From positions 1-64,000 of the forward strand of contig JAEEON010000042.1 of assembly GCA_016284305.1 (NCBI GenBank): 64,000 bases of DNA. The letters are read 5' to 3'. The translations under genes and the position numbers were made by a program. The notes beneath the pieces were generated by a model. It saw only the letters and a program-made list of their open reading frames with translations, ran no database searches and was not told the DNA's origin. Positions 17,411 through 28,602 of this stretch are shown here, in pieces (positions within the stretch are counted from its first letter, which is position 1; each line of letters opens with the position of its first letter). Origin of the DNA: Bacteroidales bacterium. GTDB taxonomy: Bacteria > Bacteroidota > Bacteroidia > Bacteroidales > F082.

Positions 17411-18211
17411 TTAATGTACGAAATGTTTTATCGGCATTTGTATCAATATGGCCTTGAAATCCTCGGGAAGCAGGTTCCATGTCGTTTCTGCAATGTCTTT
17501 GGGGATGTCCTGATAGAAAGCTTCGGCGATGCCTCCGGTGATGCAAGCCAAGGTGTCGCTGTCGCCTCCTAGCGAGACGGCAAGGCGGATGGACGACTCG
17601 AAATCGCTGCTGTCGAAAAACGCTGCCATGGCTTCGGGCACGGTACCTTGGCAGGTGCCTTCCCAACCATAAACGGGACGTATCTCATCGCAGGTGCGAC
17701 TCAGGTCGTAGCCATACCGATCGGTGATGTACTTGCGGATCGCTTCTTTGCTGTTGCCGTTGCGCGCCAGGAAGATGGCTGCAGCAGTGGCCTGCGCCCC
17801 TTTGATGCCCTCTGGATGGTTGTGGGTGATGGCTGCCGAGAGCTCGGCCACATGCTCGGTCTCTTCCAAGGTGTCGAACATCCAACCCACTGCACTGACA
17901 CGCATGGCGGAACCGTTGCCACACGAGTTGTACGGGGTGCGCTTGCCGTTGGAATGGAACAGCCAGCTGAAAAACATGCGTCCATAACCGCCCATAGGGC
18001 AGGGATACTTCTTGGCGAAGCTGACCATGCTCGCCTCCAAAGTATCCATGCCGTGATTGGGGTCCTTCAACAGCCAGTCGGCCACGGCCATACTCATGAT
18101 GCTGTCGTCGGTGTAGCTGCTCTCTTTCGAGAACAACGGAAAATCTATAATCTTTATATTGTTGAATTCATATACCGATCCTACGGTATCACCAATGATT
18201 GATCCTAACAT
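17411..18211 (-). CDS. ADP-ribosylglycohydrolase family protein
   Basis: A 266-residue DraG/ARH-type hydrolase, predicted to remove ADP-ribose from protein or nucleic acid (or act on a related adduct) in the cytoplasm. The metal-binding residues are visible in order: GDTVGS at 7-12, YTDDS at 33-37, THNHPEGIKGA near 129-139, and GGDSDTLACITGG from 214. The length is that of single-domain members. It is downstream of the VWA/macro-like gene on the same strand with a large hairpin (18230-18276) in the 82-bp gap, and follows the NrtR-type regulator gene, so the three may form one ADP-ribose-related unit. Confidence 0.9.
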   Translation of the reverse strand: MLGSIIGDTVGSVYEFNNIKIIDFPLFSKESSYTDDSIMSMAVADWLLKDPNHGMDTLEASMVSFAKKYPCPMGGYGRMFFSWLFHSNGKRTPYNSCGNGSAMRVSAVGWMFDTLEETEHVAELSAAITHNHPEGIKGAQATAAAIFLARNGNSKEAIRKYITDRYGYDLSRTCDEIRPVYGWEGTCQGTVPEAMAAFFDSSDFESSIRLAVSLGGDSDTLACITGGIAEAFYQDIPKDIAETTWNLLPEDFKAILIQMPIKHFVH

Positions 18212-18229
18212 TGTTTTTTTTGAATTTAG

Positions 18230-18276
18230 AATTTAGAATTTAGAGGGACAAGAGGCTTCCCTCTAAATTCTAAATT
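18230..18276. repeat. 19-bp perfect hairpin built from inverted heptamer repeats (copies 4 and 5)
   Basis: The arms 18230-18248 and 18258-18276 are perfect reverse complements (19 bp), with a 9-nt loop CAAGAGGCT. Each arm is a run of the TTTAGAA heptamer plus GAGGGA; the left run starts at 18222. It separates the VWA gene from the ARH gene and could act as a processing or partial termination signal. Confidence 0.85.
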
Positions 18277-18293
18277 ATTAATTCTTAATTATT

Positions 18294-19370
18294 TTAAACG
18301 AGTTCTTTCCAGAAGTCTTCTGGGAGATGGATGTTGGGGATGTTGATTGCCGAGGCGAAGAGGGGAGCGATTTGCGCGGGGGTGAAGCCGGCGATGCCAC
18401 AGCCGATGCGGGTCACCAAGAATGTCATCTGCGGGTGTGCGTCGGCGAAACGGATGAACTCATCGACGTACGGCACAATGGTTCTAACCGGACCTTGCAT
18501 GGTGGGGATGGCATAGCATTTTCCTTGGAGACCGACCCCTTGTCCCATGATGGCACCGAAGTTCTCCACGGCGAAACGAGCGGCACCTCCAGCATGCATC
18601 CCGGCTAGGTTGCTTCCGAAGACGAAGATCTCATTGTCGCGCAAACTGCGGATGTTGCGGGGAGTGATGCGATCCTGGAACTCGCTCAATTCATGGTAGT
18701 TCTTGCTTCGGCTGTTTTCCATGGAGCGATACAGCTTGCGCTCTGCGGCTCCCATGGCCGCAGTGGCCTTGCTTTGCATCGACATGCGACTAAACATCAT
18801 GCTACGCGCTTTCTGTTCCTTGATCCAAGCATCACGCATTCCGGCGTCATCGTCAGCGAAGCTCAGGTGGTTGTCGATAGAAAGTGAGCCGGAGACAGCT
18901 TCTACGTCTTGGTTGGTGCCGATGTATGAGAAGTTCCATCCTTCTTCGTTTTTCATGCGTTCCACCAATGCCTTGATGTCAGCGCCACGATACTCCCTTG
19001 AGGAGTTCTCCATGCCGTCGGTGATGACGGTGACCACGGCAGTGGCGTCTTCCTTGTCTTTGATTTCCTTGAACAAAGCGTTGATGGAAAGTCCCATGGC
19101 GTCATAGAGTGGGGTGTTGCAGCAGGGACGGTAGTCTCTCGAGGTCAGCTCTTTGACGTCGGCCACAGGCACACGGTCGTACACCAGTTTCTTCTCACAG
19201 CCGCAGAAGATCATTAGCGACACGAAATGCTCTTGCGTGTCCTTGTAATTCTCTTGTGCCGAACGGATGCTGCCCAGCGTTTCGTTGAATCCTGAAATGG
19301 CGGCCTTGGCGATGCTGCTCATCGAACCGCTCTTGTCTAAAATGATCAGATTGAAGATTTGAGTTTTCAT
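18294..19370 (-). CDS. VWA domain fused to macro-like (A1S_2505-type) domain
   Basis: A 358-residue cytoplasmic two-domain protein. Residues 1-190 are a von Willebrand A domain with intact metal-ion-dependent adhesion site: DKSGSM (12-17), Thr86 in NTPLYDA, and Asp118 in TVITDGMENS. Residues 245-358 start NEIFVFGSNLAGMHAGGAARFAVENFG and go on GQGVGLQGKCYAIPTM and FLVTRIGCGIAGFTPAQIAPLF, the pattern of A1S_2505-type phage/macro-like domains, which resemble ADP-ribose-binding macro domains. An ADP-ribosylglycohydrolase lies next to it and a Nudix regulator upstream, so handling of ADP-ribose or ADP-ribosylated targets is plausible. The N-terminal start MKTQIFNLIILDKSG is clear. Confidence 0.8.
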   Translation of the reverse strand: MKTQIFNLIILDKSGSMSSIAKAAISGFNETLGSIRSAQENYKDTQEHFVSLMIFCGCEKKLVYDRVPVADVKELTSRDYRPCCNTPLYDAMGLSINALFKEIKDKEDATAVVTVITDGMENSSREYRGADIKALVERMKNEEGWNFSYIGTNQDVEAVSGSLSIDNHLSFADDDAGMRDAWIKEQKARSMMFSRMSMQSKATAAMGAAERKLYRSMENSRSKNYHELSEFQDRITPRNIRSLRDNEIFVFGSNLAGMHAGGAARFAVENFGAIMGQGVGLQGKCYAIPTMQGPVRTIVPYVDEFIRFADAHPQMTFLVTRIGCGIAGFTPAQIAPLFASAINIPNIHLPEDFWKELV

Positions 19371-19377
19371 AACCTTT

Positions 19378-19401
19378 AATTGTTTAATTGTTAATTGTTT
19401 A
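19378..19401. repeat. TTTAATTGT tandem repeat
   Basis: Imperfect tandem units TTTAATTG/TTAATTG directly upstream of the VWA gene's start, a second short-repeat type in the window. Confidence 0.55.
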
Positions 19402-19438
19402 AATGTCTGCCTATTAATTCCTTAATATTGTATTATAT

Positions 19439-19466
19439 CTCTAAATTCTAAATTCTAAATTCTAAA
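19439..19466. repeat. Heptamer tandem repeat TCTAAAT, copy 6 (four units)
   Basis: Four perfect TCTAAAT units abutting the stop codon of the NrtR-type gene (19467). Confidence 0.85.
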
Positions 19467-20243
19467 TTAAAACTCCAGCCTAAAGTTCTTGTCTTCCTTC
19501 AGCTTGTCATAACGGTCTTTATTGAAAGAGAACTTGGTGCCTTTGCGTCGAGGGGCCGTGCGTTCTTGAGGGGTGGAGTCGCCAAACAAAGCCCCGATGT
19601 CCATTCGTCTCATCTCGTTGTTTTGACCATAATAGATTTGCTCGTCATCGTCGTCAACCTCGTCGAGAATGCCCGCCTGAAGCATCTTTTTATAAAAGTT
19701 GCGTCGGTCGAAGCGGACGTCCAAAATGGCTTCGTAAAGTCGTTGTAACTCGGGTATGGTAAACTGTTCATCCAACAAGTCGAAACCAATAGGCTCAAAG
19801 TGAATGTCCTGTTTCAGGTGTTGCATGGCCTTCCGTAAGATGTAGTCGTGGTCGAAAGCCAACGGAGGCACGTCGTTGATGGGGAACCACTTCGCATCGG
19901 CAGCATCGTCGCCACCCTTTACGTCTGATTTCCTCGCCAAAGCATAGTAGGCGATGGTGATCACCCGTTCTCTCGGGTCACGGTCCACAGCGGAGAAGGT
20001 CCCGAATTGTTTTAGGTGCGACAGCTGCAAGGTGGTTTCTTCCTGTAACTCGCGAATCGCTCCTTGCTCAGCGGTTTCATCGATCTTCATAAAACCTCCG
20101 GGGAACGCCCACCTTCCTTTATAAGGCTCAGCGCCGCGTTCAATCAATAGGATGTTGAGTCGATGACCGTCAAAACCAAACACCACACAGTCGGTCGTCA
20201 CCGCTGGATGTGGATACTTGTAACAATAATTCCCTTTTTTCAT
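19467..20243 (-). CDS. NrtR-type Nudix-winged-helix transcriptional regulator
   Basis: A 258-residue protein. The Nudix hydrolase-like domain has the box G50-x5-E56-x7-R64-E65-L-x-E68-E69 (PGGFMKIDETAEQGAIRELQEET), followed by a winged helix (FTIPELQRLYEAILDVRFDRRNFYKKMLQAGIL, ~160-195) as in NrtR/AraR regulators; a basic tail (APRRKGTKFSFNKDRYDKL) ends it. NrtR proteins sense ADP-ribose or sugar-phosphate-type ligands through the Nudix domain and repress NAD or sugar genes. Two 17-bp palindromes of the form TGTAAAnTTTAC lie just upstream, one between the -7 element and the ATG, so autoregulation is likely. The adjoining ADP-ribosylglycohydrolase and macro-like genes suggest an ADP-ribose-type ligand; sugar control is the alternative. 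Confidence 0.85.
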   Translation of the reverse strand: MKKGNYCYKYPHPAVTTDCVVFGFDGHRLNILLIERGAEPYKGRWAFPGGFMKIDETAEQGAIRELQEETTLQLSHLKQFGTFSAVDRDPRERVITIAYYALARKSDVKGGDDAADAKWFPINDVPPLAFDHDYILRKAMQHLKQDIHFEPIGFDLLDEQFTIPELQRLYEAILDVRFDRRNFYKKMLQAGILDEVDDDDEQIYYGQNNEMRRMDIGALFGDSTPQERTAPRRKGTKFSFNKDRYDKLKEDKNFRLEF

Positions 20244-20245
20244 AT

Positions 20246-20262
20246 CGTGTAAATTTTACGCA
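20246..20262. promoter_or_regulatory. Operator 1 of the NrtR-type regulator
   Basis: CGTGTAAATTTTACGCA contains the odd palindrome GTAAA-T-TTTAC, located between the -7 element and the ATG, where a repressor would block transcription start. Confidence 0.6.
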
Positions 20263-20268
20263 AAATTA
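20261..20268 (-). promoter_or_regulatory. -7 promoter element (TAATTTTG) for the nrtR-like gene
   Basis: Matches TAnnTTTG, 17 nt before the ATG at 20243 and overlapping the edge of operator 1. Confidence 0.6.
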
Positions 20269-20297
20269 CAGCTTTTTTGATTCACTGCAAGTAAAAA

Positions 20298-20314
20298 TGT
20301 GTAAAATTTACACA
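20298..20314. promoter_or_regulatory. Operator 2 of the NrtR-type regulator
   Basis: TGTGTAAAATTTACACA is a perfect 17-nt palindrome (8-bp arms around a central A), centred 52 bp from operator 1 and upstream of the -7 element. The shared TGTAAAnTTTAC core makes a two-site operator likely. Confidence 0.65.
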
Positions 20315-20324
20315 AAAATTAATA

Positions 20325-20341
20325 TTTAGAATAATTCTAAA
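20325..20341. repeat. Inverted heptamer pair over the RT stop codon
   Basis: TTTAGAAT-A-ATTCTAAA, a perfect palindrome with 8-bp arms made of two inverted heptamer units, overlapping the TAG stop of the reverse transcriptase gene. It may cap the RT transcript, though no T-tract follows. Confidence 0.6.
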
Positions 20342-21548
20342 TAGATCTTGCTTCTTTAAAGTGATGAAACTCGTTGACCAAAGTCTTGTAACCCAGTTGT
20401 TTAAGTTGTTCGTAGCTGACTTGGAAGTTGGCTTTGCAATGTCGCCCGGTGCTTAGATATCGGATGTTCTGTTGAAGGTAATGGTCGATTTCCATCAAGC
20501 CATCCGTCTGGGTGATCATCGGAAAGAACCATCGGGTCCAAGTAAGGGTCTCTGGATCGTTACTTTCGAAAAACTTTCGGTTGAAATAGCGTATTAGGGC
20601 TTTCATGGACCGTTGAGGATCGATGTCGTTACGCTCGCTCCAACGTTTCAGCGAGCGGGCTTTTCGCCGTATCTTGCCTTTCATCTTCTCAAGGGTGGAA
20701 TGGACGATGTCGATGTCGTTGCCGTGACAGCTGAAACCTAAAAACTCGTAGGCTTGGTCAGGGGAGAAGATGTGTTCTTTGTCGGGGTTTACTTCTAGCC
20801 GCAACTCATTGAGAAAGCCAAGCAGTACGGCTTTGTGCTGGTTTAGTGTGGCTTCATCGGGCGCAAATAGGATGATGTCGTCGGAATAGCGGGCGTAAAG
20901 CACACCAGCCTCCAAGAAGTGATGATCCACCTTATTTAAATAGACGTTGGCGAGGAATGGGGCAGTGGGGATTCCTGCCATCACGCCATGACGCTCTTCA
21001 GTGACTTGTCCGTTGTAAAGGACCTTGTTGTTGGTCAACATCGTCTGGAAAAACTGACAGAGCTGAGGGTCATCAACGAGAATCTCCTCCAACATAGGGA
21101 TCAGAAGGTCGATGGGGATGGAGTTGAAATAGTCGTGGATATCGACCTTGTAGGCCCACATCGGATGGCCTTTGAGACCGCGGTTGAGACTCTTTATGCC
21201 GTCATGTGCGTCGCGGCCTCGGCGGAAAGCGTAGCAGTTGGAGGCAAAGCAGTCGTCGTATCGATAGAGCAAATAGGCGAGGAGCTTGAGCATCAGCATC
21301 TCGTTATGGCCAAAGCTGTAAACAACACGTTTCTTGCCTGTGCCCATCTTGTTGATGATAGACTTGTTGGGGATGCCCAAGGATTGTCCTTGGTCTAGCT
21401 GTTGAGCCAGTGCCAGATAGCCTTTGTTTTCAACGAAATCGTCAGCCTCGTCGAAATCATGCCACGAGAGGCGACCTTTACGCAGCCGGTAGGCCAAAAA
21501 CTCTTCCCAAGCCGCTTCGCTGCCGAGTGTTGTGATGATGCTGTCCAT
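20337..21548 (-). CDS. Reverse transcriptase (group II-like / unknown-group RT)
   Basis: A 403-residue RT. Motifs in order: SIINKMGTGKKRVVYSF, SNCYAFRRGRDAHDGI (RT2a/2), AYKVDIHDYFNSIP (motif A, catalytic Asp), GVMAGIPTAPFLANVYLNKVD (motif B; the usual Q-G is A-G and S-P is A-P), LYARYSDDIILFA (motif C, Y-S-D-D), LEVNPDKEHIF and EFLGF (motifs D and E). A thumb-like region (KIRRKARSLKRWSE) and a C-terminal KANFQVSYEQLKQLGYKTLVNEFHHF follow. There is no maturase X with HNH endonuclease and no group II intron RNA domain V was found, so it is not a mobile intron. The start at 21548 lies directly after a structured ~140-nt region; the longer in-frame start at 21680 would translate that structure. 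Defence-associated, retron-like or repair RT are all possible. Confidence 0.85.
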   Translation of the reverse strand: MDSIITTLGSEAAWEEFLAYRLRKGRLSWHDFDEADDFVENKGYLALAQQLDQGQSLGIPNKSIINKMGTGKKRVVYSFGHNEMLMLKLLAYLLYRYDDCFASNCYAFRRGRDAHDGIKSLNRGLKGHPMWAYKVDIHDYFNSIPIDLLIPMLEEILVDDPQLCQFFQTMLTNNKVLYNGQVTEERHGVMAGIPTAPFLANVYLNKVDHHFLEAGVLYARYSDDIILFAPDEATLNQHKAVLLGFLNELRLEVNPDKEHIFSPDQAYEFLGFSCHGNDIDIVHSTLEKMKGKIRRKARSLKRWSERNDIDPQRSMKALIRYFNRKFFESNDPETLTWTRWFFPMITQTDGLMEIDHYLQQNIRYLSTGRHCKANFQVSYEQLKQLGYKTLVNEFHHFKEARSI

Positions 21549-21698
21549 GGCAAAAAAGAAAAAGGGGAATGATTTTGAATCCGCAAAATTGCGGATCACA
21601 AGAGGGTACATGGGCGGTCGCCTGCAAGACCATGTCTGTCGTCCCGTGCTGCCTCCGTCGCAGGCGCGGCTGAGCCGCATCCCCTTTTTCTGTTTCTT
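21549..21698 (-). ncRNA. Candidate structured RNA upstream of the reverse transcriptase
   Basis: Read on the minus strand, the region between the 181-residue gene and the RT is bounded by a perfect 12-bp inverted repeat, AGAAAAAGGGGA (21680-21691) and TCCCCTTTTTCT (21557-21568). Inside lie a GCGGCT/AGCCGC hairpin right after the first arm, CGCCTGC pairing with GCAGGCG across ~34 nt, ACATGG pairing with CCATGT, and a near-blunt hairpin ATCCGCAA/TTGCGGAT. Retron and some defence RTs carry their template RNA in exactly this place, bounded by complementary ends. A MITE-like insertion with 12-bp terminal repeats is the alternative. Boundaries are approximate. Confidence 0.55.
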
Positions 21699-22244
21699 TT
21701 AATTCAAAAACTTCCTGATGCGTCCGATGACGTAGTCACGCTCATTGGGCATCTGGGTGTAGAAGTTGATGTAAGGAAGACCGCATTTCTTGGCGTACAT
21801 GCGGGCTACGAGGTACTTCACGTTCGAGTCGTGGCTGTGGCCTTTGCCCAACATCACTACGCCCTTGGCGAGTCCATCTTGATAGAGGACGAAGCTGTAG
21901 GGTTTTCCCCATTCCGCTTTGTAAGCCTGTTGCGGACGTGACTTATACAGCTTGAATTCGTCGTTGGCGTCACCAACGAGCTCTACCACGGCGACATTCT
22001 CCCTAAAAGAGTATTGCGGGAACTCGCTCTGAAGGATCTCACGGAAGTATGCGACCCATTCCCCGTCGCTCCGCTCACGCTCAAACACCCTCGTTTGAGG
22101 TTCTGGCGTCGGTCGGGAAGAAGGCGTCGGCTGAGAACTGGGCGTCGATTGTGCCGGCTGTCCCGACAAATTCTTGGTGATTTCCCTTTTGACATCGTTT
22201 TTGATGTTGTTGGCCAGGGACGATAATAGACTTTTCCAACTCAT
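21699..22244 (-). CDS. Unknown protein upstream of the RT, remotely DUF2726/PD-(D/E)XK-like
   Basis: A 181-residue cytoplasmic protein. The N-terminus (MSWKSLLSSLANNIKNDVKREITKNL) is helical and basic, followed by a Ser/Pro/Thr/Gln linker (residues 31-50, repeated SSQPTPSS, SSRPTPEP). The C-terminal domain, FREILQSEFPQYSFRENVAVVEL ... PYSFVLYQDGLAKGVVMLGKGHSHDSNVKYLVARMYAKKCGLPYINF, has the strand-helix order of small restriction-endonuclease-like folds such as DUF2726, but the expected acidic E-x-K pair is replaced (MLGKGHSH), so it may be a degenerate, non-cleaving version. It has its own TATCTTTG promoter and is followed at 8 nt by the structured RNA and then the RT, so all three are probably on one transcript. 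Confidence 0.6.
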   Translation of the reverse strand: MSWKSLLSSLANNIKNDVKREITKNLSGQPAQSTPSSQPTPSSRPTPEPQTRVFERERSDGEWVAYFREILQSEFPQYSFRENVAVVELVGDANDEFKLYKSRPQQAYKAEWGKPYSFVLYQDGLAKGVVMLGKGHSHDSNVKYLVARMYAKKCGLPYINFYTQMPNERDYVIGRIRKFLN

Positions 22245-22273
22245 AGTGCCTGTTATTTTTAGGTTTGACGCTT

Positions 22274-22281
22274 CAAAGATA
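22274..22281 (-). promoter_or_regulatory. -7 promoter element (TATCTTTG) for the 181-aa gene / RNA / RT unit
   Basis: Matches TAnnTTTG 29 nt before the ATG at 22244; the only recognisable promoter upstream of the RT. Confidence 0.55.
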
Positions 22282-22292
22282 ATAAACTCTTT

Positions 22293-23783
22293 TTAATCAG
22301 CAACATCGGTGTTGCTCGACTCGACTTTAGTGTTCAAGGCTCCGGGGTTGTCCTCGCTGCTGATGATGTCTGATATGACCTCGGGATAGAACATCTCATC
22401 GGCTAGCTCCCTTGTCCGCGAACGTTTTCTGCGACGTTCATCCTGCTCCAACTTGGTTTGCGATACTGCGTCTTTTACCCGTTCGTTTAACAACAATACC
22501 CGTCGATAAATGCGGTACAACACCTTCTCACGCGAAATCAATGGGATTAGGATGGAGTTGATGACGATGCTGAACAAAATCACGGAGAACACCACATTGC
22601 GGATGAAGATGCCTACTGAGGTGTCAGGGATGTAAGCCATGGCTTGGGTGGCCAAAACTGCTGCGGTCAACCCTTTTGGGGTGATGGCCGACATATACAT
22701 CAACTCCTTGTCGGGGATGGAGTCCTTCCTGGAAATGGCGAAACGCACCACCGGGATGCGGAGGATGAACAATAGGATGGTGACACCGAGCCCAATAACG
22801 ATGGGTTGCCACACATAAAGCTGGATCGACATACCCACATAGATGAAAAAGAAGGTCTTGAGCAACAACACCAACTCACTGAATAGGGCCCTTTCTGTGT
22901 CGTTGAGGTTGGCTGGACGTTTCTTGATGATCTTGCGAAGCAGGCTGTCGTAGATTCCATCGATATTGGCCATGCCAATGCCAAAGGCCAAAGCCGCGAT
23001 GGCACCGCTGTAACCCATCCATTCATTGATGCCATAGATGATAAAAACAAAAGCAGGAGTGGTGAGAACGGAGTATTTGATATTGCGCACCTTGTCGAGA
23101 ATCAACGCCCAGAAAATGGAACCCATGAGGCCGATAACGGTAGCCAAGATGAACGAGGAGAAGATGTTGCCGAAAATCATGCCAAACTCCACGTGTTGCG
23201 ACTTGATGGCCTCGAGCAGAGCCAAGGCCAACACGATGCTGAACACGTTGCCGATGGCGGCTTCCAAGATGAGGATGGTGGCACTTTTCTGCGACATCCT
23301 TAGCTGTCGGACCGTGGGGATGACTACCGCAGAGGCTGTGCCGCCCAACACGCATCCCAACATCAAACTGATCACTGGGTCGATCATCAAAACCAACCAG
23401 CCGATCAACCATACCGCAAGTGCGGAGATGATGAAGTTCAACGCCGTGAGCTTCAGGGAAGGGAAGAATGAATCCTTTAAATTCTTGAAACTCAACTGGA
23501 TACCGCTCTCAAAAAGAATCAACACCAAAGTAACTGCTGAGAGGATGCTTCCCAACAAGGTGAGTCGCTCTGAATTGACGATGTGGGTGATGGGACCAAG
23601 AACCAATCCGATGATGATCAAAAACAGCACGTCGGGGATTCTCCGCTTACTGAAGATCGAGCTGAACAGATGGGCGGCGAAGATCAACAAGCCGATGATG
23701 GCGATGATCAAGCCTATTTTGCTCGACGACAGCCCCGTGGAGATGGTCTGGTTGATGCTTTCAATTTGGTTCGTGGTGTCCAT
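22293..23783 (-). CDS. Cation:proton antiporter (CPA family), paralogue 1
   Basis: A 496-residue inner-membrane protein with about 12 membrane segments. IPDVLFLIIIGLVLGPI, LILFESGIQLSF, MLGCVLGGTASAVVIPTVRQL and TILILEAAIGNVFSIVLALALLE match the Na+/H+ exchanger fold. Residues ~420-496 form a charged cytoplasmic tail (KLEQDERRRKRSRTRELADE) not present in its neighbour. The downstream half LYMSAITPKGLTAAVLATQA is conserved with the paralogue. In the latter the helix equivalent to LEAAIGN reads LESAFSDV with the ion-binding Asp; here Asp is Asn (IGNVF), as in electroneutral CPA1-type N-D/N-x variants, so ion coupling may differ. It starts 8 nt after the paralogue's stop; one operon. Confidence 0.88.
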   Translation of the reverse strand: MDTTNQIESINQTISTGLSSSKIGLIIAIIGLLIFAAHLFSSIFSKRRIPDVLFLIIIGLVLGPITHIVNSERLTLLGSILSAVTLVLILFESGIQLSFKNLKDSFFPSLKLTALNFIISALAVWLIGWLVLMIDPVISLMLGCVLGGTASAVVIPTVRQLRMSQKSATILILEAAIGNVFSIVLALALLEAIKSQHVEFGMIFGNIFSSFILATVIGLMGSIFWALILDKVRNIKYSVLTTPAFVFIIYGINEWMGYSGAIAALAFGIGMANIDGIYDSLLRKIIKKRPANLNDTERALFSELVLLLKTFFFIYVGMSIQLYVWQPIVIGLGVTILLFILRIPVVRFAISRKDSIPDKELMYMSAITPKGLTAAVLATQAMAYIPDTSVGIFIRNVVFSVILFSIVINSILIPLISREKVLYRIYRRVLLLNERVKDAVSQTKLEQDERRRKRSRTRELADEMFYPEVISDIISSEDNPGALNTKVESSNTDVAD

Positions 23784-25209: not shown

Positions 25210-28200
25210 TCACTCTTTCACGAACTTCACCATGCTGGTGGTGTTGCCCGACTTCACCTGCAAGAAGTACATTCCGTTGCTGAGTCCTTGCAGGTTGATG
25301 GTCGTCAGTCCTTGAGCATTTTCCTGGCGGTACATCAGCTGTCCCAAAGCATTGAACACTGCAATATCGCAGGACTCTTCAGGCAAGTTGAGGTTGAACG
25401 AGCCATGGTTGGGGTTGGGATAGAGGGTGGGAGTGACGATGCGTTCCTCGATCTTGGTGATGACTTGTACGGGCGGGAACGTGATGTTGTCAATCCAGGC
25501 ACAGTCGCTGCCCGATGCCCAGGAGACGTCTTTGCTATAACTCCATTGAAGAACGTGCGTGCCTACGGTTAACGGGAACGAGGCTAGAGTCCATGGCACT
25601 TCGCCAGACCAAGTGCCTGTTTGATTGCTGTCGATGGAGAAAACAAGCTTGTCGTAAGTGGTTTCTGAGGATACCTTATAATAGAAGCTGATTTCGCTTT
25701 CCACGTTCACATCCAGGGTGATGGACAGGACCGACGATTCATAGTCGTCGATTTGTGCGGATCGGGCGCAATATTGGCCTTCGTAGGGACTCTCAGTCAC
25801 CACTTCCCAAGCGGTTACCACGCTGCCGTGATTCCAGTTGTAGGTGTTGAAGTTGCCGCTCTCGAAACCTTCAGTAGTTTGGCCAACAGAAAGATGGTAG
25901 GTTCCTTGAAGGATGTAATTGCCATGATAGACGGCATAAGGTAACTCATACAGCACTCCGAATTCAGCATCGCTGCTCAGTTCAAAAGGCATGTCAATGG
26001 TGAAGCTCTCGCCGGCAGGGATGGCCTCAAGATTCCATTGGGTGGTGTTTGCGACAATCACCTCGTGAGAGTTGAACACCTCGGCATGGACTGTGGGTGC
26101 CGTGCATCCGCCATCATTTTTAAATGTGAGGTGCAGGATGCCACTATCGCCTGGGTTGACGGCAGAACGGCCATTGGACTCTACCAGGGAGGACACAAAC
26201 ACAAACTCAGGAGCGTAGATGTGAGTGTTGAAATGGCTTTCCCAAACTTCGTTGCCATCGGTACAAGTGATATTGAAGCGAACTGGCGTGTTGTTGGGCA
26301 CCTCGTCGCTCACGGTGAATGGGAAGGCGTTTTCGAGGCTGATGCTTTGGCTGCCGTTGAGGTTGCCAAGCACCACCTCTGTTTCGGCGAAAGTGATGTG
26401 TTCGCTATCACAGCTGATGGTTGCGGTCACATTGTTGGCATCGACGTTTCCGATGTTCTTTATCACCATGTTGAAAGCATAGCTGCCATTGAAATCGATT
26501 TGCGTGGCGTTATTGCTAAGGGTGTATGAATCATAGACAACGTAAGGAGCATTGCTCGGCACAGCCATGATGTCGATCTGTTGAGGGTAGGAGTTCACAC
26601 CGATGACTTTCATCTTCAACTCACCCACCTGTTGCAGGCCACCTTCAAAAACGATCTCTGCGATGCCGTTCTCGTCGGTGGTTCCCATGGCAATGACTTG
26701 GTTTTCGAAATAAACCAGGCAACGGAAGTTTTTCAGGCCATTGCCAGCGGGATCGCTCACAGTGACTTCAAAAGATTGAGTTCCAACGACTACTTGGTTG
26801 GCGCAGGCCACCGTGGCAGTATAAGGCTCGTCGAGCCAGACACTCATGGCACCGTCGCCCAGGACGTGGATGTCGTAGAAGTTCCAGCGCAAGGCACCTT
26901 CTTCCCATTGACCAGGAGCCGTCACCCAAGGGGCGGTGGCGCACTTGCTCTCCGAAAGAGCACAGCCGAGCCAACCGATGCGGTCAAAGAATTGTGCATC
27001 GGTCATCTCACGCTCCAGGTGGGCTCCAGGGCCTTCGGTCTGTCCCTCGTTGAACCAGCCATAACGCGAGTTGCCGATGACGGCAGGAGCGAAGTTCTGG
27101 ATGGTGGTCATCTTTTCGAGGATCGAGTTCTGGTCAAAAGCACCACAGTCGCAACCTTGAGTGTGGAAGATGGTGTAGTTGTGCGTGACACCGTCAGCAC
27201 CTGAGAAATCACTGTTGCTGATGGTGTACCATCCAGCTACATAGCTGGTGTTGGCATGGCCGTCGTGATGCACGTAGCCCACACCTTGGTTAATGGCATT
27301 TCTCAGCAAAGTGCCACTCCAGTTGCCTTCTTCCTCATACAGACGAATGAAGTTGTAGTCCTCAGGATAACCCGTGGTGGTGTAACCATTGTCGTCGCGG
27401 GTGCCGATGAGCAGCTCCAAATAGTCGGAACCGTTGGAGTTGGGGCTGTCGTAAAGATGTTCACCGGCAAGCACGATTTTGCGGAACTCGCCCATGACGG
27501 GATGCTGCTGGTAACTCAACGACTTGTGGATGATGTTCTGTAACTCATTGGCGTTCTTGAACGACATACGGCTGATGCCGACTTCGGGAAGCAAGTCGTC
27601 CTCTCCAGGTTCTCCCCATTTGTTGTTGTTATTTTCGTTCCAAGTACCGTCAAGACCGGCATAGTAAAGGTCGGCAGGAATGCCGTATTCTTCCTTGTCG
27701 CCACCACCAGAGGTAACATAGCAGTAGAGTCCACGGTAGGGGACGAGATCGACATCGCCGCCAAGGACCACCATCATGATACCGTTGTTTTGATATTCTT
27801 GGATGATGTAGTTGCGGATTCGTGTCTGGTTGTCGGCACCAGGGATCGTGTTGTAGATGTCGGCTACGGTAGCGATACGGTTGCGCAACCCGATGGAGTT
27901 ATAATAGTCGCAATATTCGCTGTAAGCGTCAACATACTCTTCACCCGTGATGATCAACATGTCGTAGGCGGTGACTTCTCTGCCGCGAGTCAGGTAGCTC
28001 TCCATCATCTCAGGATTCTGAGCCAGGCGTCTTACACTGTTTTTGATCTCAGGGGTGGCCCAACGCATCGAGCTGTGATCAGCTTTGGCAGCAGTGAGGT
28101 TCACGCGTACCAAGGCCTTCTTGGCGTACATCACCTTACCCGTAGCAGGAACATACTGTACTGGAGTGAAGGATGAGAAAGCAAAGCCATAGCCGTTTTT

Positions 28201-28602
28201 GTACTGCGTGGTGACAATGCCATGGTTCTCCAACGGATAAACACTCTTGGAGGCATAGACGGTTTCGTCTTTCACCAAAGCTTTGGGTGTGACATCGTCC
28301 GTCGTCCTTGAGGGTTGGTAGGGGAAGAGCTGGTGCTCGCCTTCCAGCGTTACGAAGTCGGAGAGGATCACCTCAATCGACTCGGCCTCCTGTCCCTCGG
28401 GCAACATCAAACTGACACTCTGCCAAGGCAGGCTGGGCTGCCCGATGAGAGCTGACTGCATGCAGCCTTCAAACTGAATCTGTTCGTGGCCTCTGAGTTG
28501 GCTGAACGTGGGATTTCCAAAAGAATAGCTTTTTTCAATAGTTTGTGCGTGTAGTATTGCGCAAACAATTGATAATGAGATAATTAAAAATAGTTTTTTC
28601 AT
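25210..28602 (-). CDS. Gingipain-like C25 cysteine peptidase with T9SS sorting domain
   Basis: An 1130-residue secreted protease. Signal peptide MKKLFLIISLSIVCAILHAQ; a propeptide-like region to ~200; caspase-fold peptidase C25 domain ~210-610 with DMLIITGEEYVDAY, MMVVLGGDVDLVPYR, the catalytic His449 in HHDGHANTS and Cys484 in IFHTQGCDCGAFD; then Ig-like repeats and a jelly-roll-like region (TTEGFESGNFNTYNW ... SCAWIDNITFPPV). The last ~75 residues (TLYPNPNHGSFNLNL ... GLSNGMYFLQVKSGNTTSMVKFVKE) are a type A T9SS C-terminal signal, so it is exported across the outer membrane and probably anchored or released. It likely digests extracellular protein. Has its own -7 element (28654). Confidence 0.93.
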   Translation of the reverse strand: MKKLFLIISLSIVCAILHAQTIEKSYSFGNPTFSQLRGHEQIQFEGCMQSALIGQPSLPWQSVSLMLPEGQEAESIEVILSDFVTLEGEHQLFPYQPSRTTDDVTPKALVKDETVYASKSVYPLENHGIVTTQYKNGYGFAFSSFTPVQYVPATGKVMYAKKALVRVNLTAAKADHSSMRWATPEIKNSVRRLAQNPEMMESYLTRGREVTAYDMLIITGEEYVDAYSEYCDYYNSIGLRNRIATVADIYNTIPGADNQTRIRNYIIQEYQNNGIMMVVLGGDVDLVPYRGLYCYVTSGGGDKEEYGIPADLYYAGLDGTWNENNNNKWGEPGEDDLLPEVGISRMSFKNANELQNIIHKSLSYQQHPVMGEFRKIVLAGEHLYDSPNSNGSDYLELLIGTRDDNGYTTTGYPEDYNFIRLYEEEGNWSGTLLRNAINQGVGYVHHDGHANTSYVAGWYTISNSDFSGADGVTHNYTIFHTQGCDCGAFDQNSILEKMTTIQNFAPAVIGNSRYGWFNEGQTEGPGAHLEREMTDAQFFDRIGWLGCALSESKCATAPWVTAPGQWEEGALRWNFYDIHVLGDGAMSVWLDEPYTATVACANQVVVGTQSFEVTVSDPAGNGLKNFRCLVYFENQVIAMGTTDENGIAEIVFEGGLQQVGELKMKVIGVNSYPQQIDIMAVPSNAPYVVYDSYTLSNNATQIDFNGSYAFNMVIKNIGNVDANNVTATISCDSEHITFAETEVVLGNLNGSQSISLENAFPFTVSDEVPNNTPVRFNITCTDGNEVWESHFNTHIYAPEFVFVSSLVESNGRSAVNPGDSGILHLTFKNDGGCTAPTVHAEVFNSHEVIVANTTQWNLEAIPAGESFTIDMPFELSSDAEFGVLYELPYAVYHGNYILQGTYHLSVGQTTEGFESGNFNTYNWNHGSVVTAWEVVTESPYEGQYCARSAQIDDYESSVLSITLDVNVESEISFYYKVSSETTYDKLVFSIDSNQTGTWSGEVPWTLASFPLTVGTHVLQWSYSKDVSWASGSDCAWIDNITFPPVQVITKIEERIVTPTLYPNPNHGSFNLNLPEESCDIAVFNALGQLMYRQENAQGLTTINLQGLSNGMYFLQVKSGNTTSMVKFVKE

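Follow-up and report, generated by a model that had tools for sequence, protein, structure and literature searches.

In the excerpts available to us of the papers describing them, DRT10, DRT9, DRT3a and DRT2 copy a neighbouring non-coding RNA (ncRNA) repetitively (PMC12632851, PMC12483538, PMC13174585, PMC12039810). The same excerpts describe the DRT10 ncRNA as 137 nt long, comprising one central stem-loop besides smaller ones, and its partner as a predicted membrane protein (PMC12632851); the gene that DRT2 makes by copying 120 nt is free of stops (PMC12039810), and the templates are poorly conserved in both DRT2 (PMC12039810) and DRT10 (PMC12632851). The excerpted DRT2 paper describes telomerase RNA as having a stem on the 5' side of its template and a pseudoknot strand on the 3' side (PMC12039810).

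We analysed a 64,000-nucleotide stretch of DNA (the window) from a gut bacterium and determined that its minus strand carries a cassette of three parts, in the order (i) a gene for a partner protein; (ii) an RNA of the family RT-5; and (iii) a reverse transcriptase (RT) that profile scores assign to the group UG26. As far as the DRT10 excerpts go, the cassette resembles that system in having an RT of a related group (UG17 in DRT10), an ncRNA of similar size, and three parts that include a predicted membrane partner. It differs, however, in that (i) the RT is not of UG17 (105 bits, vs 538 for UG26); (ii) the partner is a SLATT protein in DRT10, whereas here it is predicted to be PD-(D/E)XK-like and no SLATT gene is adjacent; (iii) the RNA lies between partner gene and RT, whereas the excerpts place that of DRT10 upstream of the partner; and (iv) the RT-5 RNA contains a pseudoknot, while the excerpts mention none for the DRT10 RNA. 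With DRT9 (UG28) and DRT3a the cassette would share the ncRNA-templated repetitive synthesis that their excerpted papers describe and that we propose below (PMC12483538; PMC13174585), but by inspection RT-5 has neither a conserved U-rich loop nor an ACACAC loop. DRT2 (UG2), according to its excerpt, likewise has a pseudoknotted ncRNA adjoining the RT (PMC12039810), but the RT-5 RNA totals about 134 nt and is mostly not stop-free as a repeat. Telomerase resembles the cassette in the layout of stem, variable single strand and pseudoknot, and in a weak RT sequence match (5.3e-6), whereas the UG26 cassette is bacterial and T1 and T2, described below, are candidate templates only.

Cassette layout and the group of the reverse transcriptase

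The features of the cassette, in minus-strand order, are:

22274-22281, minus strand: candidate Bacteroidetes -7 promoter box TATCTTTG, 5' of the partner gene, read from the sequence
21699-22244, minus strand: partner gene, 181 aa, adjoining RNA and RT in most loci (PADLOC RTasCOG2852; AF2 model)
21558-21690, minus strand: RT-5 RNA, full modelled extent from P1 arm to P1 arm (covariance model R1, 138.2 bits, a score that is not independent, since R1 was built from 37 RNAs including this copy)
20337-21548, minus strand: UG26 reverse transcriptase, YSDD (PADLOC RT_UG26, 2.8e-162; Pfam RVT_1, 1.9e-24; AF2 pLDDT 92)

The RNA (21690-21558, minus strand) ends 9 nt ahead of the 403-aa RT (21548-20337, minus strand). 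A longer RT open reading frame, reaching 21680, is probably not the gene, because, among the matches listed, those of many homologues begin at Met1 (query residue 1), and conservation of M1 reaches at least 90% in 41 sequences; at some loci the match starts no earlier than residue 2-4. The partner gene belongs to the same unit as the RNA and the RT. Ahead of it, TATCTTTG at 22274-22281 is weakly suggestive of a Bacteroidetes -7 box; no exact -33/-7 promoter pair was found 5' of the gene. Neither this gene (21699-22244) nor the pseudoknot figures in the initial annotation.

That annotation had read a stand-alone 403-residue RT with the motifs YSDD and AGIPTAP (motif B), and both are indeed present in the frame at 20337-21548 (minus strand). 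The PADLOC profile of UG26 (RT_UG26, PDLC03764) gives a near full-length match of 538 bits (residues 3-399 of 403); the profile itself carries no mechanism. Among the best 25 of 89 PADLOC models, a generic RT model is next at 115 bits, followed by UG17 (DRT10) at 105, UG27 at 97, UG4 at 93, an RT-Cas1 model at 89, Drt9 at 84, Drt3a at 78 and Drt2 at 63 bits. By these scores, which group the RT by profile and not by a tree, it falls in UG26, a catalogued class, and not within the mobile group II introns, a placement for which we had looked. The UG/Abi classification of RTs was reportedly published in 2022.

A profile search of solved structures matched DRT9 (7.8e-20), Drt2 (2.9e-9) and telomerase RT (5.3e-6), and GsI-IIC, a group II intron RT, is the nearest solved RT in both sequence and fold. 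The best NCBIfam model is a group II model, at 122.7 bits under its cut-off of 300. A group II intron was considered and rejected: the RT model stays under this cut-off, and a scan of the window at the Rfam curated cut-offs gave RT-5 only and no group II RNA family, consistent with the earlier reading that intron RNA is missing. At the RT C-terminus, Y379 is found in 82/82 sequences, and Y387 and S389 in 81/82 each (T at 389 in this copy); DRT10 primes from a C-terminal Ser/Tyr.

In a literature search of limited scope, we found no paper on the function of UG26 or on that of RT-5, and UG26 appeared as a class name only, in the excerpt available of one viral survey. RT-5 reportedly stems from a 2017 study of 224 candidate RNAs.

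The RT-5 RNA: fold and linkage to the RT

The RNA belongs to the known family RT-5 (RF03026), whose full Rfam model (1-104) matches at 80.8 bits (cut-off 45.7; E = 2.5e-14 in 64 kb) and spans 21566-21669 only. As both RNA (Rfam RT-5) and RT (PADLOC UG26) are catalogued, the pair is not the 'undescribed' RT-RNA system that was first proposed. The perfect 12-bp inverted repeat that had been noticed is present as the core of two 16-nt arms (21553-21568 and 21680-21695, 94%). The Rfam structure line holds P3 and P4 only, without P1, P2 or the pseudoknot, the last of which is also outside model R1. The elements of the extended fold are:

21680-21690, minus strand: 5' arm of the closing stem P1, pairing with the 3' arm at 21558-21568 (helix 1)
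21666-21678, minus strand: P2 hairpin (helix 2; 93.3% paired, both-sided changes at 4/5 pairs)
21660-21665, minus strand: pseudoknot strand 1, GCCUGC, pairing with 21620-21625
21601-21656, minus strand: P3 arm, with P3a, P3b, a variable loop and the P3c hairpin (helices 4-6; 93-96% of cells paired)
21620-21625, minus strand: pseudoknot strand 2, GCAGGC, in the P3c loop (covariation)
21579-21596, minus strand: P4 hairpin (helix 7; 89.6% paired, both-sided changes at 6/7 pairs)

In P1, 96.8% of the cells are paired and 6/11 pairs show both-sided changes; in the 6-bp pseudoknot, 99.8% of 462 cells are paired, with both-sided changes at three of the six pairs and the other three invariant. P3b is imperfect in this copy. 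A chance fold is excluded by its stability (z = -3.8; 0/200 shuffles as stable), by the Rfam E-value of 2.5e-14 and by both-sided changes in 217 cells vs 66 in shuffles (37 sequences). The whole fold, including the closing stem, extra hairpin and 6-bp pseudoknot that we add to the Rfam structure, thus has comparative support, and the internal stems of the initial annotation are real, being P2, P3a/b/c and P4.

That annotation had likened the arrangement to the msr-msd of a retron, in which the RNA would yield a branched RNA-DNA hybrid. The RNA does have complementary ends and lies directly ahead of the RT, but VTG, the motif typical of retron RTs, occurs in 0/82 RTs, the longest modelled stems other than P1 have 7 bp, and the NCBIfam retron St85 model reaches 53.7 bits (cut-off 235) vs 538 for UG26; we regard a retron as very improbable. 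That the RNA is a leader acting in cis to control how the RT mRNA is translated, and not a template, is improbable as well. The 9 nt between RNA and RT start codon in this copy would suit such a leader, as would the 8-18 nt between the RNA and the start of the RT match in 60/77 complete loci; 11 of the remaining 17 may also start near the RNA, because they have an in-frame start codon within about 31 nt of it. However, in 6/77 loci (L070, L073, L089, L108, L112, L117) the nearest start codon is at least 33 nt and up to more than 130 nt away, and the apical pseudoknot and the conserved join do not appear to be positioned over the start codon.

The earlier proposal that the bounded, structured RNA belongs with the RT is borne out by their linkage. 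The RNA was found at 82/82 RT loci, three of these cut by contig ends, and the RT at 64/65 RNA-first loci, the sole exception stopping at a contig edge; a search for RNAs without an RT, or RT loci without the RNA, therefore yielded none. RNA and RT are positive in the identical 25/149 genomes, own genome included, and among 395 genomes drawn over the phylum either part was found in the own genome only. The RNA has one copy in this 89%-complete genome, and one match per positive genome in the surveyed sets. One relative lacks the cassette, having neither RT nor partner at the site flanked by the same two genes. A MITE-like insertion or other mobile repeat beside the RT by chance, the alternative offered initially, would agree with the inverted ends and with this empty site; single copies, the RT linkage and compensatory changes throughout the RNA lead us to reject it, leaving it next to no probability.

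The RT has at least 558 relatives among the matches listed. Phage and plasmid collections gave no match at 1e-20; at 1e-6, the 60 plasmid matches listed, of at least 5000 records, comprised 52 annotated group II intron RTs, 7 unannotated proteins and 1 hypothetical protein, and viral contigs contained two distant relatives (30% and 21% identity). PADLOC matched no Cas genes among 10 neighbour proteins, and the neighbours tested included neither a defence island nor any conserved neighbour besides the partner. No direct repeats longer than 16 nt (as a DGR TR/VR pair) were found at 21300-22400.

The partner protein

The partner gene lies beside RNA and RT in 63/65 RNA-first loci and 80/84 RT loci, and the distances among partners correlate with those among RTs (Mantel r = 0.80, n = 75). 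PADLOC RTasCOG2852 (PDLC03793) matches 39/41 members, at best with 6e-7; the match of this copy is weak (2.3e-6) and lies in the C-terminal part (residues 96-180), and no Pfam match was obtained at E 1. In the AF2 model, an amphipathic N-terminal helix is followed by a Pro/Ser-rich linker and a PD-(D/E)XK-like domain, a fold predicted from the order of its elements and from weak Foldseek matches to PDB folds (best E 0.096).

The centre of PD-(D/E)XK nucleases is formed by a catalytic D and a D/E-x-K on core strands. Among the 41 members we found no conserved D/E-x-K and no invariant D, E or K; strand 125-133 reads AKGVVMLGK. As judged from its sequence, the domain is apparently nuclease-like but inactive. 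Alternatively, the partner may have an unusual catalytic centre, since E111, K143 and K153 are each at least 90% conserved (41 members). The amphipathic N-terminal helix exceeds shuffles in 22/41 partners (uncorrected p < 0.05), and the N-terminus is hydrophobic in 2/41. We give equal weight to the partner being a membrane effector and to its not being one.

Candidate templates and proposed mechanism

Two stretches of the RNA are candidate templates:

21632-21641, minus strand: T1, CGACAGACAU in this copy, the longest run of poorly conserved positions in the RNA
21569-21578, minus strand: T2, an invariant UCAAA and five variable bases, between P4 and P1

T1 (0.06-0.61 bits per position) has a stem on its 5' side and a pseudoknot strand on its 3' side, and that it is the template is a serious possibility, falling just short of even. 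Loop tests used 143/147 RNAs, three cut by contig ends and one with a long insertion (L104) having been dropped; these RNAs, many of which are repeated retrievals of the same genome, contain 84 distinct loops. In 20/60 clustered loops the two halves share a repeat of 3 nt or more, vs 12.9 for re-paired halves (p = 0.012). Depending on how the loop flanks are set, counts of such repeats give p-values of 0.001 to 0.03 relative to re-paired halves and of up to 0.11 relative to letter shuffles; summed repeat lengths give 0.009 to 0.17 and up to 0.63, respectively. The direct-repeat enrichment in T1 is suggestive only, and the 4-nt repeat in this copy's loop is not unusual (6/72 loops vs 4.4 expected).

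The UC of T2 recurs 10 nt further on, where the 3' arm of P1 begins; the UC-to-UC spacing is 10 nt in 121/144 RNAs, 9 in 21/144 and 11 in 2/144, with 3/147 RNAs that lack the exact motif left out. Beyond the invariant UC no repeat matched (p = 0.65), and the second UC sits inside a stem; we consider T2 rather doubtful as a template. Compared with the A-B-A' repeat in the template loop of DRT10, there is a modest enrichment in T1 and, in T2, only the invariant UC.

A DRT2-like reading, in which a long portion of the RNA would be copied in successive rounds to give a stop-free gene, is quite improbable. The RNA is pseudoknotted and beside the RT, as in DRT2, and stops are scarce in the 97 distinct whole RNAs: 2-4 of 6 frames are open in 72/97 (2-3 in 15/97 shuffled), and, when joined head to tail, 18/97 RNAs give a stop-free sense strand (8 when shuffled) and 16/97 a stop-free antisense strand (4 when shuffled). 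However, the shuffles overstate this scarcity, because related RNAs share their lack of stops; most head-to-tail copies would come to an end, just 22/97 RNAs have a length divisible by three, and the open frame running into the RT varies between loci.

By analogy with DRT10, DRT9 and DRT3a, we think it reasonably probable that the cassette is an RNA-templated, defence-type UG26 RT system that makes short-repeat cDNA. Shown directly are the fold of the RNA, the linkage of the three parts, the group of the RT and one empty site. Of the inferred parts of this proposal, binding of the RNA by the RT is highly probable, a role in phage defence quite likely, use of the RNA as the template of the RT likely, and a repetitive product moderately likely. 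Counting against the proposal are the closeness of the RT to GsI-IIC and its best NCBIfam score with a group II model, the dependence of the T1 repeat signal on the setting of the flanks, the lack of a T2 match beyond the invariant UC, the absence of a defence island among the neighbours tested and the weak PDB fold matches of the partner. The RNA would probably be read out with the operon; its fold would form a closed scaffold with a pseudoknot, to which the RT binds. From a short single-stranded template within this scaffold the RT would make copy after copy, probably through melting and re-annealing of the kind seen in DRT10 and telomerase, and so produce DNA of tandem repeats or of low complexity. 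The partner, which is probably associated with the membrane, would sense that DNA or execute its effect, filling the place of the SLATT proteins in DRT10. With T1 as the template, this copy would yield (TGTC)n; with T2, repeats of ATGATTTTGA. With considerable doubt, we also put forward a telomerase-like bacterial machine, in which a near locus-specific template would give strain-specific tandem-repeat DNA, read by a membrane-held, non-catalytic, nuclease-like partner.

The analysis links the UG26 group with an orphan RNA from the catalogues, whose complete fold is now tested, and with a partner gene that is conserved; it also yields two template predictions, both short and explicit. If the proposal is true, telomerase-like synthesis would reach a system of many gut Bacteroidales, and the DRT systems would gain a new kind of partner.

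Composition and distribution of the cassette

The genome holding the window is a 2.59 Mb draft, 89.4% complete, in which the cassette is arranged in the following order:

22244-21699, minus strand: partner gene (181 aa), first in order
21690-21558, minus strand: RNA, between partner gene and reverse transcriptase (RT) gene
21548-20337, minus strand: RT gene, last in order

The RT matches the PADLOC UG26 model with 538 bits (generic RT model, 115; UG17, 105), and the RNA matches Rfam RT-5 (RF03026) with 80.8 bits against a cut-off of 45.7. The initial annotation had described a structured RNA bounded by a 12-bp inverted repeat, and this repeat proved to be P1, the closing stem of the RT-5 RNA. 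The parts of the cassette are already catalogued.

Separate searches of 149 relatives with RF03026 and with the UG26 profile (cut at 1e-60) identified the same 25 positive genomes, our own included. Starting from the RT, we took the best 80 of at least 558 relatives, added our own copy and a single locus from another family, and found the RNA at all 82 loci; three matches are partial, truncated at a contig end, that of L045 is weak (40 bits), and three additional rows in this search are antisense shadows. The 80 named loci derive from records of metagenomes or of uncultured Bacteroidia/Bacteroidales, and a ruminant gut is named in many of the titles. In an RNA-first set, which shares genomes with the RT-first set and is not independent of it, an RT lies downstream in 64 of 65 loci, the other (L144) stopping at a contig edge.

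Of these 65 loci, 63 have the partner gene; one of the other two stops at a contig edge, and from the other, L166, the gene is truly absent. Among 84 RT loci it is present in 80, the exceptions being three contig edges and again L166; the partner in L045 has 27% identity. L166 is a divergent UG26 relative (RT 40% identical; RNA match weaker, at 72.8 bits) in which no partner gene was found upstream and the join between inner stem P4 and P1 is without UCAAA; it is possibly a two-part form of the cassette. When neighbouring ORFs at 81 loci were clustered, no family besides the partner and its antisense shadow (14 loci) occurred in more than 10 of the 81. The partner was counted in only 60 loci by this method, partly because longer antisense ORFs masked it.

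RF03026 was detected in 24 of 173 genomes of our own family. Of 348 genomes in the genus to which another locus belongs, 35 were positive, as were 6 of 189 and 6 of 181 in the families of two further loci. Across a phylum-wide set it was found in one of 395 genomes, as was UG26. One genome (G036) has two UG26 RT-RNA loci on separate contigs, L031 (G036:C111) and L046/L090 (G036:C68), the RNA of the latter being truncated by the contig end.

RNA fold and distance to the RT

The fold was tested on 37 diverse sequences, with 45 pairs in seven helices. Paired cells amount to 94.9%, a figure biased in favour of the fold, which was drawn on one of these 37 sequences, compared with 82.9% when shuffled and 41–52% in slid controls. 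Both-sided changes were seen at 30 pairs (16.4 in shuffles), and 217 cells changed on both sides (66.2 in shuffles). Because the pseudoknot is absent from R1, our covariance model of the full RNA, its count on the larger alignment, which includes the three antisense rows, is unfitted to it: 99.8% of 462 cells are paired (98.0% shuffled, 17–40% slid), and nine cells carry both-sided changes against 0.8 in shuffles, with three pairs invariant. The clearest compensatory cases are ACCCGU/ACGGGU in L105 and ACCCGC/GCGGGU in L118.

Of 77 complete loci, 60 have 8–18 nt between the RNA end and the RT match, and the other 17 have 33–173 nt; an in-frame start codon is closer to the RNA in 11 of these 17 but not in the remaining six. 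This closeness to the RT start would allow the RNA a role in RT translation, and we therefore raised our estimate for a cis-acting leader, although we still consider that reading improbable. Stop codons are rarer in RT-5 RNAs (here 21558-21690) than in shuffles; despite this scarcity, the open frame into the RT is not the same between loci.

The two proteins and the candidate template sites

In the AF2 model of the partner, residues 61–180 have a pLDDT of 96–98 by blocks of ten. A helix is followed by five strands, the first of which leads into a short helix, and then by helix, strand and helix, an order that we take to be PD-(D/E)XK-like; the best Foldseek matches are the TnsA and Bax1 endonucleases, but they are weak (E 0.1–0.3). 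PADLOC RTasCOG2852 matched 39 of 41 partner members (best 6e-7); a Pfam search of the partner gave nothing convincing, and a PDB sequence search no match. Because the 41 members share no invariant D, E or K, and the residues conserved in at least 90% of them (E111, K143, K153) lack D/E-x-K spacing, the partner is probably not an ordinary active nuclease. Its N-terminus forms an amphipathic helix, the hydrophobic moment exceeding shuffles in 22 of 41 members (uncorrected p < 0.05); two divergent partners (L123, L131) have a true hydrophobic stretch there.

The AF2 model of the RT has a pLDDT of 92. Ordered by Foldseek E-value, its matches among solved structures are a group II intron RT (TM 0.77), DRT9 (0.66) and G2L4 (0.71); sequence-profile matches to solved structures are GsI-IIC (2.7e-26), DRT9 (7.8e-20), Drt2 (2.9e-9) and telomerase RT (5.3e-6). 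Within the C-terminal region, Y379 is conserved in 82 of 82 sequences, and Y387 and S389 in 81 each (residue 389 is T in this copy). Since DRT10 (PMC12632851) and DRT9 (PMC12483538) are described as priming from a C-terminal Ser or Tyr, these three are candidate priming residues.

Two sites in the RNA are candidate templates:

21641-21632, minus strand: T1, loop between P3b and P3c
21578-21569, minus strand: T2, P4-P1 join

T1, with a stem on its 5' side and a pseudoknot strand on its 3' side, is the longest run of low-information positions in the RNA; the P2 loop, of 3 nt, is equally variable. T1 measures 6–20 nt (4 of 147 RNAs left out). We compared the loop halves for A-B-A' repeats of the type that the DRT10 template is described as carrying (PMC12632851). 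Counted with one flanking base per side, repeats of at least 3 nt occur in 28 of 84 distinct loops, against 19.9 after the halves had been re-paired across loci (p = 0.025), and in 20 of 60 clustered loops, against 12.9 (p = 0.012). Over six flank settings, p for such counts was 0.001–0.03 with re-paired halves as the control and reached 0.11 with shuffled letters; for summed repeat lengths the corresponding values were 0.009–0.17 and up to 0.63. A separate run on 70–72 loops gave p 0.001–0.02 for repeats of at least 3 nt and no excess of repeats of at least 4 nt, and a map of repeat positions showed weak, scattered signals. The direct repeats are thus weak evidence, suggestive at most, that T1 is a template.

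In T2, UCAAA is invariant across 78 aligned rows, and a second UC, which falls within the P1 arm, lies 9–11 nt beyond the first in every one of the 144 RNAs that carry the motif exactly (10 nt in 121; three of 147 left out for want of it). No within-locus match was found past the fixed UC (p = 0.65). By our reading of the text of PMC12632851, the DRT10 template lies past the last small stem-loop and ahead of the closing arm, a site to which T2 corresponds.

Flanking genes and mobility

The antiporter gene that flanks the cassette in the window was found in 9 of 13 relatives searched. In one (G020, L175) it stands about 150 bp from an NrtR-like regulator, with neither RT nor partner; in the remaining fetched antiporter stretches, the regulator was not within the flanks. 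In L062 (1607-12838) the antiporter and NrtR-like regulator genes again enclose the cassette, but further DNA, 2.2 kb on one side and 4.8 kb on the other, separates it from them, so this interval may be a frequent insertion site.

In the window, an ADP-ribose/NAD-type gene run occupies one strand at 17411-20243:

within 17411-20243: ADP-ribosylglycohydrolase
within 17411-20243: protein of 358 aa with no Pfam match at 0.001
within 17411-20243: NrtR-like Nudix regulator

Directly before the regulator gene, at 20247-20313, are two near-identical palindromes, GTGTAAA(A/T)TTTAC, a motif with four matches in the window against 0.15 expected. Because similar palindromes, judged by eye, persist at the equivalent place in the cassette-free L175, the palindromes probably go with the regulator and not with the cassette. 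Elsewhere, 25210-28602 encodes a large secreted family C25 peptidase with a Por secretion tail.

RT and partner distances are correlated (Mantel r = 0.80, n = 75, p = 0.001; r = 0.72 without L045 and L123, n = 73), and the cassette seems to be gained or lost as a whole unit. The mechanism that we infer rests mainly on its relationship to RNA-templated defence RTs, and the results that stand firmly are the unit itself, the RNA fold with its pseudoknot, and the partner.
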